A stretch of DNA of 64,000 nucleotides from Bdellovibrio sp. GT3. Its GTDB lineage: Bacteria > Bdellovibrionota > Bdellovibrionia > Bdellovibrionales > Bdellovibrionaceae. Where the stretch lies: NCBI RefSeq assembly GCF_037996765.1, contig NZ_JBBNAD010000004.1, forward strand, positions 682,001 through 746,000, written 5' to 3'. The position numbers were made by a program, and so were the translations under genes. Shown here piece by piece: positions 9,913-15,574 of this stretch. Numbering within the stretch: position 1 is the first letter of the stretch; each line of letters starts with the position of its first letter. The notes below the pieces were generated by a model. That model saw only the letters and a program-made list of their open reading frames with translations, was not told the DNA's origin and ran no database searches.

Positions 9913-12900
9913 ATGCGCATTTCTGACGTATCCATTCGCAATGCTGTTTTCTCCTGGATGCTGTTTGCGGCATTTATCATTTTTGGTTTTATTTCCTTCA
10001 TGCGACTGGGGGTCAGTCAATTGCCCGATGTGGACTTTCCGGTCGTGAATGTTTCTTTGACTCTTTTGGGAGCAGCTCCTGAAATCATGGAAACTTCAGT
10101 CGTGGATCCGGTCGAAGACGCCCTGTCTTCGGTGGAGGGTGTGACTCGCATCAGTTCAGTCAGTAAAACCGGGATCGCCAATATCACCATTGAATTCGAA
10201 TTGGACCGAAATATTGATGTGGCCCTGCAGGAAGTGCAAACCAAGGTGGCCCAGGCGCAACGACTCATGCCTGAAAATGTTGATCCTCCGATTATCACCA
10301 AAACCAACCCCGATGATCAGCCGATTTTATGGCTGGCTTTAATGTACGACAAAAATGATCCATATTTTTTGATGACCTACGCCAAAGACTATCTGAAGGA
10401 TCGCTTTACGATGGTTTCCGGTGTGGGGGATATTATTCTGGGTGGTTATACAGATCCCGCCATGCGTGTCTGGGTGAATGCAGATAAGCTTAAGAAAAAT
10501 GTGATCTCAGTGGGCGACGTGATGGAGTCTATCTATGCCCAGCATACGGAAGTGCCCGGTGGTTTTATCCAAAATCCCAAAAATGCCTTCAATGTCAGAA
10601 CACTGGGGGAGTTTAAGGACGCCAAGGGTTTTGATGACATGATCATAAACCGCCGCGCAGGCATGGTGATTCAGGATCCGTACAACACAATTCGTTTAAA
10701 GGATGTCGGTCATGCCGAGGAGTCCCTGGCAGAAGTGTATCGCATCTCGCGTTTTGATGGGGTGATGGCTTTGGGGCTGGGAATAAAAAAGCAAATCGGC
10801 TCCAATGCGGTGGCCGTGGCCAACGCAGTAAAGCAACAGATGGTGGATATTCAAAAAACACTGCCTGAAGGCATGAAGCTCGGAGTGAATTTTGATTCCT
10901 CCCGCTATATTGAACAAAGTATCCAGGAGATGATCAAGCATCTGGTGCTGGCAGTGATCCTGACCTCTTTGGTGTGCTGGATTTTTCTGGGAAGCTTTAC
11001 CGCGACGTTGAACGTATTGTTGGCAATTCCCACCTCCATCATGGGGGCCTTCATTGGTTTGTATTTTTTTGGATTCACTCTGAATACTTTCACTTTGCTG
11101 GGATTAACTCTGGCGATCGGGATCGTGGTGGATGATGCCATCATGGTGCTTGAGAATATATTCAGGTACAACGAACGGGGATTGCGCCCCATAGAGTCCG
11201 CCATCATCGGCGCTCGGGAAATCACCTTTGCGGCTTTGGCGGCAAGTATTGCGATCATCGCGATCTTTTTGCCGGTGGCCTTTATGAAAGGTGTTATTGG
11301 GAAATTCTTTTTACAGTACGGTATTACAATATCTCTGGCTGTGTTGCTGTCGCTGCTGGAATCTTTGACGATTACACCCATGCGCTGTTCGTCATTCGTG
11401 CATACCGGTCATCGTTCCACGCGAATTGGAAAAGCATTTGATATCTTTATGGATAAGTGGCGTGAATTTTACGCCAAATCATTGAATTGGGTTTTGTCTT
11501 TTCGTTGGACGGTGTTGTTCGCATCCGTGGCTTTTGTTGGGGTCTCATTTGTCACTGTCATGGGACTGAACCGGGAAATGACACCGATCCAGGATCAGAG
11601 TTTGTTCATCATGCGCCTGTTCTTGCCCATTGGAACATCTTTGGCGACCTCCGATCAAAAAGCGCGGGAAATCGAGAAATGGATGCGCTCACAAAGTGAA
11701 GTCAAACATCTCTATGCCAGTGTGGGTGGATTGGGATCAGGTGGCGGGAGTGATGCCAACACCGGGATGATGTTTGTGACTTTGAAAGACAAGGGTGAGC
11801 GGGGTGTGAATAAAGAACTGGGGCGCGAGTTGTCGCAGCAGGAGTTCATGAATTTTGCCCGCAAAGAACTGACTCAGGCTGTGCAAGGTGTTCAGGTGTT
11901 CATGATGGACCCATCAAGCCGGGGATTTTCAACCGGCAAAGGATATCCGATTGAATTTATTTTGCAGGGACCTGACTGGGCGAAACTTGAGGAGATCAAT
12001 AACAAATTCAAAGAAGATATGAAGCAATCAGGAATGATGGTGGATGTCGATTCAGACTATCTTGCCGGGATGCCTGAAATTCAAGTGACCCCGGCGCGGG
12101 ATAAAGCGGCTCTTCGCGGAGTCAGCGCGGAAGATATTGGTGTGACAGTGCAGGCGATGATTGGTGGCGTTAAAAATGGTCAATACACCAAAGGCGGACA
12201 CCGTTATGATGTCTACGTTCAATTGGAAAAGGCCAAGGACCCGCGAACTGAATTTAATAAACTTCTGATTGCCAATGATCGCAACAACCTGGTTCCGCTT
12301 TCACAAGTTGCACAGATTGAACAAAAAGCCAGTCTGCAACAAGTAACCCGGGTGAATCGTCAGCGCGCTATCACGATTTATGCAAATCTGGCGTCAGGGG
12401 CTTCCCAGCAAAAAGCCTTGGATTTTATTTTTAACAAAGCCAAGGATCTCCCCGAGGGATACTTCATCGATCAATCGGGGGCCGCTAAAACCTTTCGCGA
12501 ATCATTTGATAGTTTAATATTCGCTCTCGCCCTGGGCGTTTTAGTGGCCTACATGGTGCTGGCGAGTCAGTTTAATTCCTTCATGGATCCCGTGACAATT
12601 CTGATGGCATTGCCCTTCAGTATCTCCGGGGCTTTCTTTGCACTGTATCTGACGGGACAATCCATCAATATGTATTCCATGATCGGTATTCTGCTGCTGA
12701 TGGGGATTGTGAAGAAGAACTCAATTTTGTTAATTGATTTTACCAACGCTGTTCGTTCACGAAAAGAAAATACGACGGCGGATTCAGCTCTGAAAGAAGC
12801 CTGTCCAATTCGTCTGCGCCCGATCATTATGACCAGTGCCGCGACGATCACCGCGGCCTTGCCGTCAGCATTGGCGACCGGGGCCGGTTCAGAAACGTTT

Positions 12901-13560
12901 AAACCCATGGCGATCACCCTGATTGGCGGGGTGATGGTTTCAACGCTTTTAACATTGTATGTGGTGCCTGTGGTGTACTCGTTGTTAGATCGCTTTCGCA
13001 AACGGGACACAAGGCAAAAAGATGTTCGCCTGGCATTTCAAAATGTCGGAGCCGCGGTTTCAATCAACGAAAACGGCCAGCCAGTGATGAGCGACGGAGA
13101 AGGTCTGCAGGATGATGCGGGCATCAAAACTGAAATTACCAATGAAACTGAGGAGCAAGGATTAAGGCACTGGGAGGAGGAGGAAGAGATGGAGAAGGAA
13201 CATCGGGAAAAAAGAAGTTTTTTTGGATTCTTAAGAAGAAAGTATAAAAAACCGACGGGACCCAAGCCGATTTTTAGCTCGCCGTCGCCGGGCGTTCGCC
13301 GTTCCATGGGGGAAGACACAGAGAAGGCTGCGGAGCAGAGAATTGCCGAAGAAACCACCCGGATGGAAAGCCGCCATCTGCGATCCGAGGATATTGAACC
13401 TGATTTTGATCGCAATATGCCGCATGTGCAGGATGAACTGGGTGAGCAGGCCGAGAAAAATCTGGTGCGCGACGAACGCGAACGCCATCGCGAAGAAGAA
13501 CGTGTGCAAAGAATGCGAGAGCATGATCGGCGCATGCGTGGTCTTGATCGCGATCACTGA
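9913..13560 (+). CDS. RND-family efflux pump with long charged C-terminal tail
   Basis: A 1215-residue AcrB/MdtB-type inner-membrane pump, about 170 residues longer than usual. The proton relay is intact: paired Asp in GIVVDDAIMVLEN (TM4) and Lys in MGIVKKNSILLIDF (TM10). Two six-helix halves with large periplasmic loops are seen. From about residue 1035 a cytosolic tail begins (LLDRFRKRDTRQKD...) that is extremely rich in Glu, Arg and Lys and ends in repeated RER/HREE stretches, probably helical or disordered. No adaptor or TolC-like gene lies beside it, so partners must be elsewhere. Confidence 0.92.
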   Translation: MRISDVSIRNAVFSWMLFAAFIIFGFISFMRLGVSQLPDVDFPVVNVSLTLLGAAPEIMETSVVDPVEDALSSVEGVTRISSVSKTGIANITIEFELDRNIDVALQEVQTKVAQAQRLMPENVDPPIITKTNPDDQPILWLALMYDKNDPYFLMTYAKDYLKDRFTMVSGVGDIILGGYTDPAMRVWVNADKLKKNVISVGDVMESIYAQHTEVPGGFIQNPKNAFNVRTLGEFKDAKGFDDMIINRRAGMVIQDPYNTIRLKDVGHAEESLAEVYRISRFDGVMALGLGIKKQIGSNAVAVANAVKQQMVDIQKTLPEGMKLGVNFDSSRYIEQSIQEMIKHLVLAVILTSLVCWIFLGSFTATLNVLLAIPTSIMGAFIGLYFFGFTLNTFTLLGLTLAIGIVVDDAIMVLENIFRYNERGLRPIESAIIGAREITFAALAASIAIIAIFLPVAFMKGVIGKFFLQYGITISLAVLLSLLESLTITPMRCSSFVHTGHRSTRIGKAFDIFMDKWREFYAKSLNWVLSFRWTVLFASVAFVGVSFVTVMGLNREMTPIQDQSLFIMRLFLPIGTSLATSDQKAREIEKWMRSQSEVKHLYASVGGLGSGGGSDANTGMMFVTLKDKGERGVNKELGRELSQQEFMNFARKELTQAVQGVQVFMMDPSSRGFSTGKGYPIEFILQGPDWAKLEEINNKFKEDMKQSGMMVDVDSDYLAGMPEIQVTPARDKAALRGVSAEDIGVTVQAMIGGVKNGQYTKGGHRYDVYVQLEKAKDPRTEFNKLLIANDRNNLVPLSQVAQIEQKASLQQVTRVNRQRAITIYANLASGASQQKALDFIFNKAKDLPEGYFIDQSGAAKTFRESFDSLIFALALGVLVAYMVLASQFNSFMDPVTILMALPFSISGAFFALYLTGQSINMYSMIGILLLMGIVKKNSILLIDFTNAVRSRKENTTADSALKEACPIRLRPIIMTSAATITAALPSALATGAGSETFKPMAITLIGGVMVSTLLTLYVVPVVYSLLDRFRKRDTRQKDVRLAFQNVGAAVSINENGQPVMSDGEGLQDDAGIKTEITNETEEQGLRHWEEEEEMEKEHREKRSFFGFLRRKYKKPTGPKPIFSSPSPGVRRSMGEDTEKAAEQRIAEETTRMESRHLRSEDIEPDFDRNMPHVQDELGEQAEKNLVRDERERHREEERVQRMREHDRRMRGLDRDH

Positions 13561-13569
13561 GGTACGGAC

Positions 13570-14469
13570 TTACCTCTGCCAGCGAGTCTGATAACTGATG
13601 GTGATGGTTTTTGAAAGACTCGTGTTTTCAGGTGAGCCAAATAATGTTTGATCTGCATAGGACAATGTCCAGGCACTTTCCATGCTTAGCATGTAATTGG
13701 CCATCGTAGTCCATGTGATATTTTTTTGTGAAGATCCCTTGGAGGATTGGGCGCCGGAAATTTCAATGGCGTCCTCATACATGCCCGTAAAACCAGATCC
13801 CACTCGCCAGTCACCTTTGTTCCAGCCGCCACCAATGCTCCAGCTGTGCCCGATATTCGGTGTTGCCGTGATGGTGCCGCCATTAGCGGGACTGGAAAAT
13901 TCCCGGGCAAATGATTTGTGAATCTCAACGCCAGCGTTGGCATCCCAACGACCGAAAACTTTAACTAAAGCGGCGCCACCACCCACGTTGAAGAAACCTC
14001 TGCCTCGGGAGTCTGAGGCCAGGGAGTTAGTGGCATCATAAATGGAGGGCGACGTGGGAACCGCAAGTTGCAAAAAGGTCAGGCCTTTTGGTTTCCAGCG
14101 GGAATAAGACTTTTCAGGAAATGTTTCGTGGCCCAGGGTTAAAGAAATATCGCCAAGTCCAGTGCTGGTTTCATTTGTGATGGAGCGGGAAATCACGGGC
14201 ACGGAAAACCCAGTTTGCCAGGTGTCTGAAATCAGAGTGGCTGCTTCGATTTTAAATGTCTGACTGTGGTTTTCGTCCGCGCGTTTGATCCATTTCTGAT
14301 TGGGCAGAACATCGTCGGTAACCCGACCGTAACTGAGTGAACTGGTCAGTTGTGTTTTCTCATCACCCATGATCAGTGCGGGAAACGCGAATCCACCGCC
14401 ACAACAGCTCGCGGCCAGGCTCTGTGTGCCGGCTCCCAGAAGCAAGAGTGCAAGAAAGAATGACTTCAT
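13570..14469 (-). CDS. Exported protein with N-terminal CCGGG motif, outer-membrane-like
   Basis: 299 residues with a signal peptide ending near LAA-S; the mature chain starts with SCCGGG and then FAFPALIMGDE. The rest is Gly/Ser/Thr-rich beta strands ending in SYQTRWQR, like a porin or PF13557-type outer-membrane channel. The Cys pair at the mature N-terminus could bind a metal or be a redox target of the redoxin made by the same operon. It is the last gene of three, its start overlapping the preceding stop by four bases (ATGA). Exact function is unknown. Confidence 0.68.
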   Translation of the reverse strand: MKSFFLALLLLGAGTQSLAASCCGGGFAFPALIMGDEKTQLTSSLSYGRVTDDVLPNQKWIKRADENHSQTFKIEAATLISDTWQTGFSVPVISRSITNETSTGLGDISLTLGHETFPEKSYSRWKPKGLTFLQLAVPTSPSIYDATNSLASDSRGRGFFNVGGGAALVKVFGRWDANAGVEIHKSFAREFSSPANGGTITATPNIGHSWSIGGGWNKGDWRVGSGFTGMYEDAIEISGAQSSKGSSQKNITWTTMANYMLSMESAWTLSYADQTLFGSPENTSLSKTITISYQTRWQR

Positions 14470-14909
14470 AACAGTAAACTCACCGTGGCTTGATCGATCA
14501 CTGTAGTGCCGTTTTTCAAATAAATGCGAACTTCCCAGTCACCCGGCATAATGAAATAAACTCGGCGAATACGGTAAACACCCGTTTCAATTTTCTCGAT
14601 AGTGACCGGAGAGGATCCGTGTCCCATGGAGGGCATCCACAGAATAGCACTTAAAGTATTTTCAGGATCCACCAGGGTACCGGCGCTCACAGAATCAGTT
14701 TTACTCCAGAACTTCAGGATAAATTCAGACTCAGCAGGTGACTGAGGTCCCAGGGTCCATTCAAGTTTCGCGCAAAGATTTGCATGCGCCAATTGCAAGA
14801 GGCACTCATCGCCGGAATTAGTTTGTGTGCTTTCATTGAGCTTTGGATCAATATAATCCGGTCGTGCACAAGCGGAAAAAGCCAGAAATAACAGAATCAG
14901 GAATTTCAT
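14466..14909 (-). CDS. Lipoprotein with YtkA/FixH-like beta domain
   Basis: 147 residues. A short lipoprotein signal (lipobox FSAC, Cys near 14) precedes a beta-sandwich-like domain. The stretch LWMPSMGHGSSP, then GVYRIRRVYFIMPGDWEVRIYL, matches the pattern of YtkA/FixH proteins (Met-Pro-x-Met-Gly-His and a later Met-Pro-Gly-x-Trp), a family linked to copper or heme-copper oxidase assembly. Two further Cys lie near residues 37 and 46. Its start codon directly follows the redoxin stop (TAA-ATG), so it is translationally coupled. Confidence 0.7.
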   Translation of the reverse strand: MKFLILLFLAFSACARPDYIDPKLNESTQTNSGDECLLQLAHANLCAKLEWTLGPQSPAESEFILKFWSKTDSVSAGTLVDPENTLSAILWMPSMGHGSSPVTIEKIETGVYRIRRVYFIMPGDWEVRIYLKNGTTVIDQATVSLLL

Positions 14910-15464
14910 TTACGCGTCCTCGCGCGAAATGTAGCAACCCACGGCGCGGCCTTCTTTTAAGCGAACCTCTTTGCCGGATTCAATGTCTTCGAGGGCGTCT
15001 TTTAGAAAATGTTTTTTTGCTGAAGGTCCCACGTTGCTGTCAGTGACGCCACCTTGATACAAAACTTCGCCGTCAGGGGAGAGCAGGTAGGCGTGCGGAG
15101 TTTTCAAAGCACCAAAATCATTGGCAAGACGGGATTTTGAATCCTGGATAACTGGAAACGGCAAAGCCGCTGTAGTGAAGTGGCTTTTTGTCATTTCAGC
15201 GTTTTCATCCGTGTTGGAATGAACCCCCACAAAGTTAAAGTCCTTGTACCGTGTGGCTAATTCCTTCAGCAAAGCCTCGTGACTTGCAGAACAAGGGCAT
15301 TTTGCAGAAAGAAAAACGACGACTGTGCCTTTATTGGCAGATTTTGTTTCCAGATGCAGAAACTTGCTGGACAGCACATCGGTTCCATCAACAGAATTAA
15401 ACTGCTTTGCGGCCCAGAGATTCAATGAGGTCGTCAATATAAACAGGCTGATTAATAGTTTCAT
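14910..15464 (-). CDS. Exported redoxin / PRX-like thiol protein
   Basis: 184 residues with a signal peptide (MKLLISLFILTTSLNLWA). The thioredoxin-fold core shows VVVFLSAKCPCSASHEALL with Cys-Pro-Cys in the active-site position, a FPVIQD strand, and TPHAYLLSPDGEVLYQG with the conserved cis-Pro. A C-terminal VGCYI supplies another Cys, as I recall from PRX_like1-type proteins. The CPCS site differs from CxxC, so peroxidase, metallochaperone or disulfide roles are all possible. It heads an operon with the FixH-like lipoprotein and the CCGGG protein, arguing for one shared envelope pathway. Confidence 0.78.
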   Translation of the reverse strand: MKLLISLFILTTSLNLWAAKQFNSVDGTDVLSSKFLHLETKSANKGTVVVFLSAKCPCSASHEALLKELATRYKDFNFVGVHSNTDENAEMTKSHFTTAALPFPVIQDSKSRLANDFGALKTPHAYLLSPDGEVLYQGGVTDSNVGPSAKKHFLKDALEDIESGKEVRLKEGRAVGCYISREDA

Positions 15465-15574
15465 AGGACGCTTCTAACACACGGAGTCTGCCGCGACCAG
15501 ACGACAAATTGTTGCACCCATATTTTTGACGCACATTGCTTGCAGGAACTCATACTGTCGGGCAAAATTTCGAT

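Follow-up and report, generated by a model that had tools for sequence, protein, structure and literature searches.

Apart from TonB-dependent uptake, the route by which copper destined for oxidases passes the outer membrane is, to our knowledge, poorly known. In Bacillus subtilis, CtaK, a YtkA protein, has been postulated to act together with Sco when CuA is assembled, and mutation of ctaK causes a loss of oxidase activity that copper restores (available portions of PMC13344008 and PMC9145763). In the same portion of the second of these sources, TlpA is described as holding the thiols of CuA and Sco in the reduced state (PMC9145763). CrdA of Helicobacter pylori is a copper resistance determinant and is devoid of His and Cys, as far as the accessible part of PMC9182242 goes. 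At the outer membrane, the FapF barrel is almost closed by a helical plug (PMC5557850, in excerpt), while in the COG4313 channels, which have been linked to hydrophobic substrates, the N-terminus lies inside the barrel and almost closes the pore (PMC4493636, in excerpt).

The locus described here shares features with each of these systems. It lies in a window of 64,000 nucleotides (the whole stretch of DNA that was analysed) from Bdellovibrio sp. GT3; many of the bacteria that carry it are predators of other bacteria. Our own handles for loci and genomes begin with L and G, respectively. The features of the locus are:

15501..15515, minus strand: operator-like element GCAACAATTTGTCGT upstream of RED, with two mismatches to the palindrome GCAACANNNTGTTGC
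15472..15480, minus strand: GTGTTAGAA, some 7-9 nt ahead of the start of RED, recurring with small changes in same-genus loci
15464-14910, minus strand: RED, an exported thioredoxin/peroxiredoxin-like protein of 184 residues with CPCS, KTPH and a C-terminal GC
15291..15299, minus strand: codons of RED C56-P57-C58 (C56 45/45, P57 45/45, C58 44/45)
14934..14936, minus strand: codon of RED C177, in the GC near the C-terminus (45/45)
14909-14466, minus strand: YTK, a predicted lipoprotein of 147 residues with a YtkA domain
14619..14636, minus strand: codons of the YTK Met/His motif MPSMGH (M92-H97; window sequence and alignment)
14469-13570, minus strand: OMP, an outer-membrane beta-barrel (model) of 299 residues with an N-terminal Cys-Cys
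14401..14406, minus strand: codons of OMP C22-C23 near the mature N-terminus (50/50 each)

An operon for three exported proteins

RED, YTK and OMP are exported proteins encoded in a gapless three-gene set. The TAA stop codon of RED (14912-14910) abuts the ATG of YTK (14909) with zero gap, and the TGA stop of YTK overlaps the start of OMP within an ATGA (14469-14466). The open reading frames come from a simple custom caller, which places starts only approximately and overlooked some genes. The two junctions and the exported calls bear out a preliminary description of this DNA, in which three envelope proteins were said to be translationally coupled through TAA-ATG and ATGA. No description of the three-gene set was found in the literature, among the matches listed. 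A scan for sigma-70 promoters and terminators gave matches no more numerous than in shuffled sequences. Facing the operon is a convergent gene for an RND-type pump (window 9913-13560); its product bears a long charged C-terminal tail, the transporter domain ending at residue 1025 of 1215.

The same genes are found together far beyond the window. OMP relatives occur in 59 of the 98 genomes of the order; a profile search finds them in 154 of the 290 genomes of the phylum. Within the order, RED matches are of two kinds, an operon type of at least 153 bits and paralogues of at most 80 bits. The operon type is present in 58 of the 98 genomes, 55 of which also carry OMP (Fisher P 8.5e-19, uncorrected for kinship). 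Among the 76 genomes of at least 2.6 Mb, 53 have both genes, one has OMP only, one RED only and 21 neither. According to genome coordinates, RED lies upstream of OMP, adjacent and on the same strand, in 52 of the 55 genomes with both, and 421 to 1006 nt (median about 467) separate the two matched stretches, a distance that suits one small gene. As judged from ORF labels, YTK stands immediately before OMP in at least 48 of 53 fetched loci and the complete set is intact in at least 43 of these, counts that are not of independent events, the loci being phylogenetically redundant. The preliminary description would have been contradicted had the genes stood apart in most relatives; instead, the gene order that it singled out is kept in other genomes. 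Chance is excluded as the source of the gene set, since RED and OMP co-occur, stay adjacent in 52 of 55 genomes, and have near-invariant Cys-Cys and Cys-Pro-Cys motifs, together with the Met/His motif of YTK (see below).

Two or more YtkA-type genes are present in the fetched stretch of 27 of the 53 loci, and L075, L175, L180 and L184 have a tandem pair of them between RED and OMP. Among the best 80 of 133 RED relatives found in genome contigs, which were those examined, most are labelled as Bdellovibrio-like groups (Bdellovibrionales, Oligoflexia and Bacteriovoracaceae among others). The combination of RED, a YtkA-type gene and OMP is also present under the labels Streptomyces griseus (L150), Nitrosovibrio (L168), Epsilonproteobacteria (L180), Deltaproteobacteria (L127, L141) and Proteobacteria (L157, L173), all of which may be mislabelled bins. 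In contigs L187-L198, which come from Armatimonadota, Bacteroidota groups and Ignavibacteria, two of them being without a group name, neither YTK nor OMP was labelled. Seven RED relatives of this group were read, of which five have CxxCP and two, both from Armatimonadota (L187, L190), have CPCS; in these two the motif sits in the second part of a two-part thioredoxin-like protein, with no labelled YTK or OMP neighbours. A tblastn search with OMP gave no match at E<=0.01 in 72,556 plasmid records.

RED, a redoxin with a Cys-Pro-Cys site

RED contains the sequence SAKCPCSASH, as well as a GC near its C-terminus, and scores above the Pfam cut-offs of DUF6436, Thioredoxin_8, AhpC-TSA and Redoxin. 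It was modelled with a thioredoxin fold (pLDDT 94.3), the nearest structures being 2ywi, 2cvb and 3u5r, followed by ResA and others. In an alignment of 45 of 46 sequences (L051, which has stops, was omitted), residues S53, C56, P57, S59, H62, T122, P123 and C177 are invariant, while C58 and H124 are kept in 44 and 43 sequences, respectively. When the profile is set against the PRX-like structures, C56 corresponds to the second Cys of CxxC, S53 takes the position of the first and C58 is extra. The CxxC active site of the TlpA/ResA type is absent from RED, which reads Ser53-x-x-Cys56-Pro57-Cys58: CPCS is not a CxxC site because an invariant Ser replaces the first Cys. The Cys-Pro-Cys redoxin site announced in the preliminary description is therefore real as a motif, with one exception in 45 sequences, but it is not a CxxC site. 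RED had no match to the Sco profile (PF02630) at E<=1, and the CxxxC of the Sco type is absent from its alignment.

YTK, a predicted YtkA-domain lipoprotein with a Met/His motif

YTK scores 32.0 bits against YtkA (PF13115; cut-off 25.9), a family matched by 35 of 47 YTK relatives at E<=0.01. FixH (PF05751) has no match in the YTK of the window at E<=1 and is matched by one of the 47 relatives (E 0.0007), so that of the YtkA/FixH-like lipoprotein first proposed, the YtkA half holds and the FixH half is given up. The sequence displays a lipobox-like FSAC, WMPSMGHGS and MPGDW. In the alignment (47 of 48 sequences, L046 being left out), C14, M92, H97, M121 and G123 are invariant and M95 is present in 45 of 47; the Met/His motif that had been noticed in the second protein is thus MPSMGH, with M92, H97 and M121 each found in all 47 sequences. 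In E. coli, a lipoprotein whose residue +2 is not Asp is retained at the outer membrane. Since residue +2 of YTK is not Asp, this predicted lipoprotein is likely held at the outer membrane as well. Its profile also gives a weak match (E 0.0041) to 9ll2, a solved copper resistance protein, the printed sequence of which fits the CrdA motif given in the accessible part of PMC9182242.

OMP, a barrel with an N-terminal Cys-Cys

The sequence AASCCGGG follows the signal peptide of OMP. In an alignment of 50 of 53 sequences (L090, L093 and L094 were omitted as partial), C22, C23, E115, P138 and G165 are invariant. The Cys-Cys described earlier at the mature N-terminus of an outer-membrane protein is thus found in 50 of 50 sequences, and the barrel was modelled, with a pLDDT of 91.5 and 12 strands by our own count of the listed elements. 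FapF is both the top structural match (5o65, Z 27.4 over 255 residues) and the top profile match (E 5.2e-12), and the COG4313 channel 4rl8 also aligns well (Z 25.9 over 251 residues). The range of OMP covered by the structural alignment begins at residue 22, which places the Cys-Cys at the start of the plug, in a segment (residues 15-26) with pLDDT below 50. The N-terminal coiled coil of FapF finds no room in OMP, where about 15 residues separate the Cys-Cys (22-23) from strand 1, which begins at residue 37. No Pfam family scores above cut-off on OMP; PF13557 has no match in the OMP of the window and matches 2 of 50 relatives (best E 1.6e-6). Assignment to FilC (E 7.5e-6) or TraF (0.013) was rejected, both NCBIfam matches being far under cut-off.

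The residue preceding the first Cys-Cys is Ser in 27 of 53 sequences, Ala in 23, and Thr, Val and Phe in one each. In L079, the pair preceded by Phe falls inside the called signal region and the mature pair follows a Pro. What precedes the Cys-Cys could therefore suit a lipobox in 50 of the 53 sequences (Ser or Ala) and does not in three (Thr, Val, Pro). Judging from these residues, OMP might be lipidated at C22, but we lean towards cleavage after Ala-x-Ala. At least nine OMP matches among those listed (L007, L104 and seven more) contain one in-frame stop each and are either decaying copies or assembly errors.

Copper genes in the neighbourhood

In three loci, L058 (G080), L063 (G060) and L065 (G088), OMP has near it a second YtkA gene (YTK2), Sco and PCuAC. 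Pfam verified Sco in L058 and PCuAC in L058 and L065, and genome searches place both genes near OMP in all three. Sco and PCuAC are thus at most 6 kb from OMP in three genomes of two genera, where about 0.06 would be expected among the 18 genomes having PCuAC and OMP. This nevertheless represents only 3 of the 59 OMP genomes; two of the three are congeneric, and G060 has its RED at another site in the genome.

Gene content across the order has little to add. COX2 and Sco, found in 92 and 90 of the 98 genomes, do not discriminate because they are nearly universal. A dependence on oxidase type, suggested by the cbb3 gene ccoN in 49 of 59 OMP genomes against 19 of the other 39, disappeared in genomes of at least 2.6 Mb (46/54 against 17/22, P 0.50), as did an association with PCuAC (18/59 against 5/39, P 0.05). 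Zinc, which the preliminary description had put beside copper, is hardly indicated: a single ZrgA neighbour (Pfam, L071) was seen, and zinc was set aside as the metal.

A palindrome shared with Sco-PCuAC operons

The motif GCAACANNNTGTTGC is the full palindrome from L058 and L065, two loci of another genus than that of the window. It is common to a minority of RED operons, Sco-PCuAC operons and RegB/RegA-like regulators, and is newly found here. Using 59 permuted palindromes as the control, sites with at most one mismatch were present in 6 of 91 regions upstream of RED (permuted mean 0.05, maximum 1) and missing from the other 85; without the motif sources L058 and L065, which sit in this set, the figure is 4 of 89. 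When two mismatches were allowed, 19 of the 91 had a site (permuted mean 1.14, maximum 7). At one mismatch or fewer, the element was also found upstream of 7 of 23 Sco operons (permuted mean 0.02, maximum 1) and of 6 of 30 YTK2 genes (mean 0.05, maximum 1), a set in which the contigs of L058 and L065 recur as L160 and L170; L175 is in both the RED and the YTK2 sets. The RED set omits L082, L233 and L187-L198, and identical upstream regions were merged; an exact site before Sco in L236, missed by the operon rule, is uncounted. Of 14 Sco regions fetched after the motif had been fixed, three (L252, L254, L255) have a site at up to one mismatch and 11 have none.

In 16 chosen genomes there are 20 exact sites against one for the reversed control, two of the 20 being from one duplicated stretch of G060. 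By our reading of the maps, twelve accompany the RED operon, YTK2, Sco/PCuAC, RegB/RegA-like pairs or a cytochrome-domain gene, or else genes recurring beside these; the remaining eight are at other genes. An exact site stands upstream of YTK2-Sco-PCuAC in L063, and another, in L270, upstream of a gene for an HMA-domain metal ATPase, after a Crp/FNR-like gene and before ccoN.

In the genome of the window, sites with two mismatches occur at RED (15501-15515) and just upstream of the Sco gene, and a site with one mismatch precedes its second YtkA gene (L081). A single site in this genome proves little, because 19 sites with at most one mismatch were counted genome-wide against 9 for the control. 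GCAAC with a degenerate second arm was seen before RED in 11 same-genus loci that were read; among the 13 same-genus loci, nine have the two-mismatch site, L041, L042 and L049 have the GCAAC arm only, and L079 has none. GTGTTAGAA is a possible -10 region.

A family of about 325 residues without a Pfam domain above cut-off (L058:9476-10462, L071:3977-4945, L246:4372-5352) recurs with YtkA, Sco and PCuAC genes, and the L246 member has an exact palindrome just upstream. Two exported proteins of 209-210 residues without Pfam or NCBIfam match (L231:1171-1803, L238:4148-4777) have an exact GCAACANNNTGTTGC within the first bases of their reading frames, so that their true starts are probably further in. 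They lie beside Sco-PCuAC-YTK2 or HK-RR genes and are possible further members of the regulon.

In Rhodobacter, Sco sits with PrrB/PrrA. Here, Sco-PCuAC of L235 is preceded by a RegB/RegA-like pair, and such a pair also heads Sco-PCuAC-YTK2 in L058, where it is divergent to RED. The kinase/regulator pairs adjacent to the sites in L058, L235 and L232 are nearest to ActS/PrrB/RegB and ActR/PrrA/RegA, with NF033792 and NF033791 as best matches that stay below the curated NCBIfam cut-offs (for example 131.8 against 350 and 131.2 against 250 bits), and their regulators carry a Fis-type HTH_8. The kinase and regulator genes beside the site of L246 are of another type, with a PhoB-like regulator. No RegA-like protein was found in the parts of the window genome that were read; L081 gave weak matches only. 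The RegR box GNGRCRTTNNGNCGC is 15 bp long with 5-bp arms spaced by 5, and the boxes of RegA, PrrA and RegR are called degenerate and dissimilar in the part of PMC5506826 available. GCAACANNNTGTTGC matches the RegR box GNGRCRTTNNGNCGC in length and in the spacing of its arms and differs from it at one position per arm. A RegA-like protein may bind the palindrome.

A proposed role for the operon

The preliminary description had proposed a metal or thiol handling pathway across the envelope. That idea is supported in part: such a pathway fits, with zinc hardly indicated and FixH given up. The metal can be narrowed to copper, with a link to respiration, by the YtkA homology, the weak match to 9ll2, the Sco/PCuAC neighbours in three genomes and the palindrome in common with Sco-PCuAC. 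That the operon is involved with copper seems to us likely. Somewhat less firmly, we favour RED-YTK-OMP as an envelope copper-handling module that helps respiratory oxidases to acquire their copper centres; of its exact mechanism we are much less sure. Several observations weigh against this reading: Sco and PCuAC lie near OMP in few genomes, gene content across the order does not discriminate, most upstream regions of RED and most of the later Sco regions lack the palindrome, COG4313 channels have been linked to hydrophobic substrates (PMC4493636), the Cys-Cys segment of the OMP model is of low confidence, and OMP might be lipidated at C22.

In such a module, YTK would bind Cu(I) through its Met/His loop, as proteins of the CrdA and CtaK types are thought to do. 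RED, in the periplasm, with its Cys-Pro-Cys and third Cys, may keep copper-binding thiols reduced or pass on Cu(I), like TlpA/Sco. OMP would be a 12-stranded channel of the FapF/COG4313 type with the Cys-Cys on an N-terminal segment at the plug position, where the pair could bind Cu(I) or serve as a redox gate; RED probably acts on this pair, with YTK as its likely partner. In some genera at least, the shared palindrome would tie expression to Sco-PCuAC and RegB/RegA-like redox regulators, and copper supply would therefore follow respiratory demand. The fully specified version, an outer-membrane arm of respiratory copper supply in which the plug barrel gates on Cu(I) or redox state and is reset by the CPC redoxin, and copper passes to the YtkA lipoprotein and on to Sco/PCuAC under redox control of the RegA type, is less likely than not.

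Copper could instead be handled for detoxification, surplus periplasmic copper being sequestered or exported with OMP as the exit channel rather than supplied to oxidases. The closest solved YtkA-like chain appears to be CrdA, a resistance determinant (PMC9182242, accessible part), L063 has genes for a metal P-type ATPase and a MerR protein at a distance of a few kb from OMP, and the convergent RND pump gene of the window is on that side of the operon in 5 of 13 same-genus loci. Yet among the 40 other OMP loci just two (L052, L060) have a member of the RND family near the operon, and the shared element is seen at Sco-PCuAC and at redox regulators, so that we regard detoxification as unlikely. 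Slightly less probable still is a role in thiol chemistry only, RED and the OMP Cys-Cys forming a thiol relay or redox gate for a channel for hydrophobic or other solutes, with YTK as a mere assembly helper: the barrel does share its modelled fold with the COG4313 channels, and RED is thioredoxin-like with three conserved Cys, but both the invariant Met/His of YTK and the element common to Sco-PCuAC would be left unexplained. Export of a polypeptide by OMP in the manner of FapF, its best structural and profile match, with RED and YTK as periplasmic helpers, is very improbable, as the FapF coiled coil has no room and across genera no additional gene except YtkA paralogues recurs beside the operon.

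If the copper-handling module is the correct reading, an operon so strictly conserved, in which a non-TonB Cys-Cys barrel is tied to CuA-assembly genes, would offer a testable candidate for the outer-membrane step of copper passage.

Comparison with known systems

Like CtaK, YTK is a YtkA-domain lipoprotein with a Met/His motif and a link to Sco, and some YTK2 paralogues also have His-rich C-terminal tails. It differs in that its operon also encodes an outer-membrane barrel and a CPC redoxin, in that the cell has two membranes, and in that its role is a putative one. Its profile reaches 9ll2, the chain called a copper resistance protein, but YTK carries an invariant His and a lipid-anchor Cys, whereas the H. 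pylori CrdA has neither His nor Cys (PMC9182242, accessible part). RED has the thioredoxin fold of the TlpA/Sco/PCuAC pathway but is neither TlpA nor Sco, since it has no CxxC and no CxxxC, and most genomes have Sco and PCuAC at other sites than RED-YTK-OMP. The PRX-like thioredoxins 2ywi, 2cvb and 3u5r have in common with RED the fold and the C-terminal GC-I motif; in comparison, RED has Ser53 (45/45) for the first Cys of CxxC and gains Cys58 (44/45) and His124 (43/45). A RegB/RegA-like pair stands beside Sco in some genera here too, as in the loci where RegB/RegA (PrrB/PrrA) accompany Sco. Finally, OMP shares the 12-stranded fold of the FapF and COG4313 barrels, as modelled, but is distinguished by its invariant N-terminal Cys-Cys, by the lack of the FapF coiled coil and by the operon to which it belongs.
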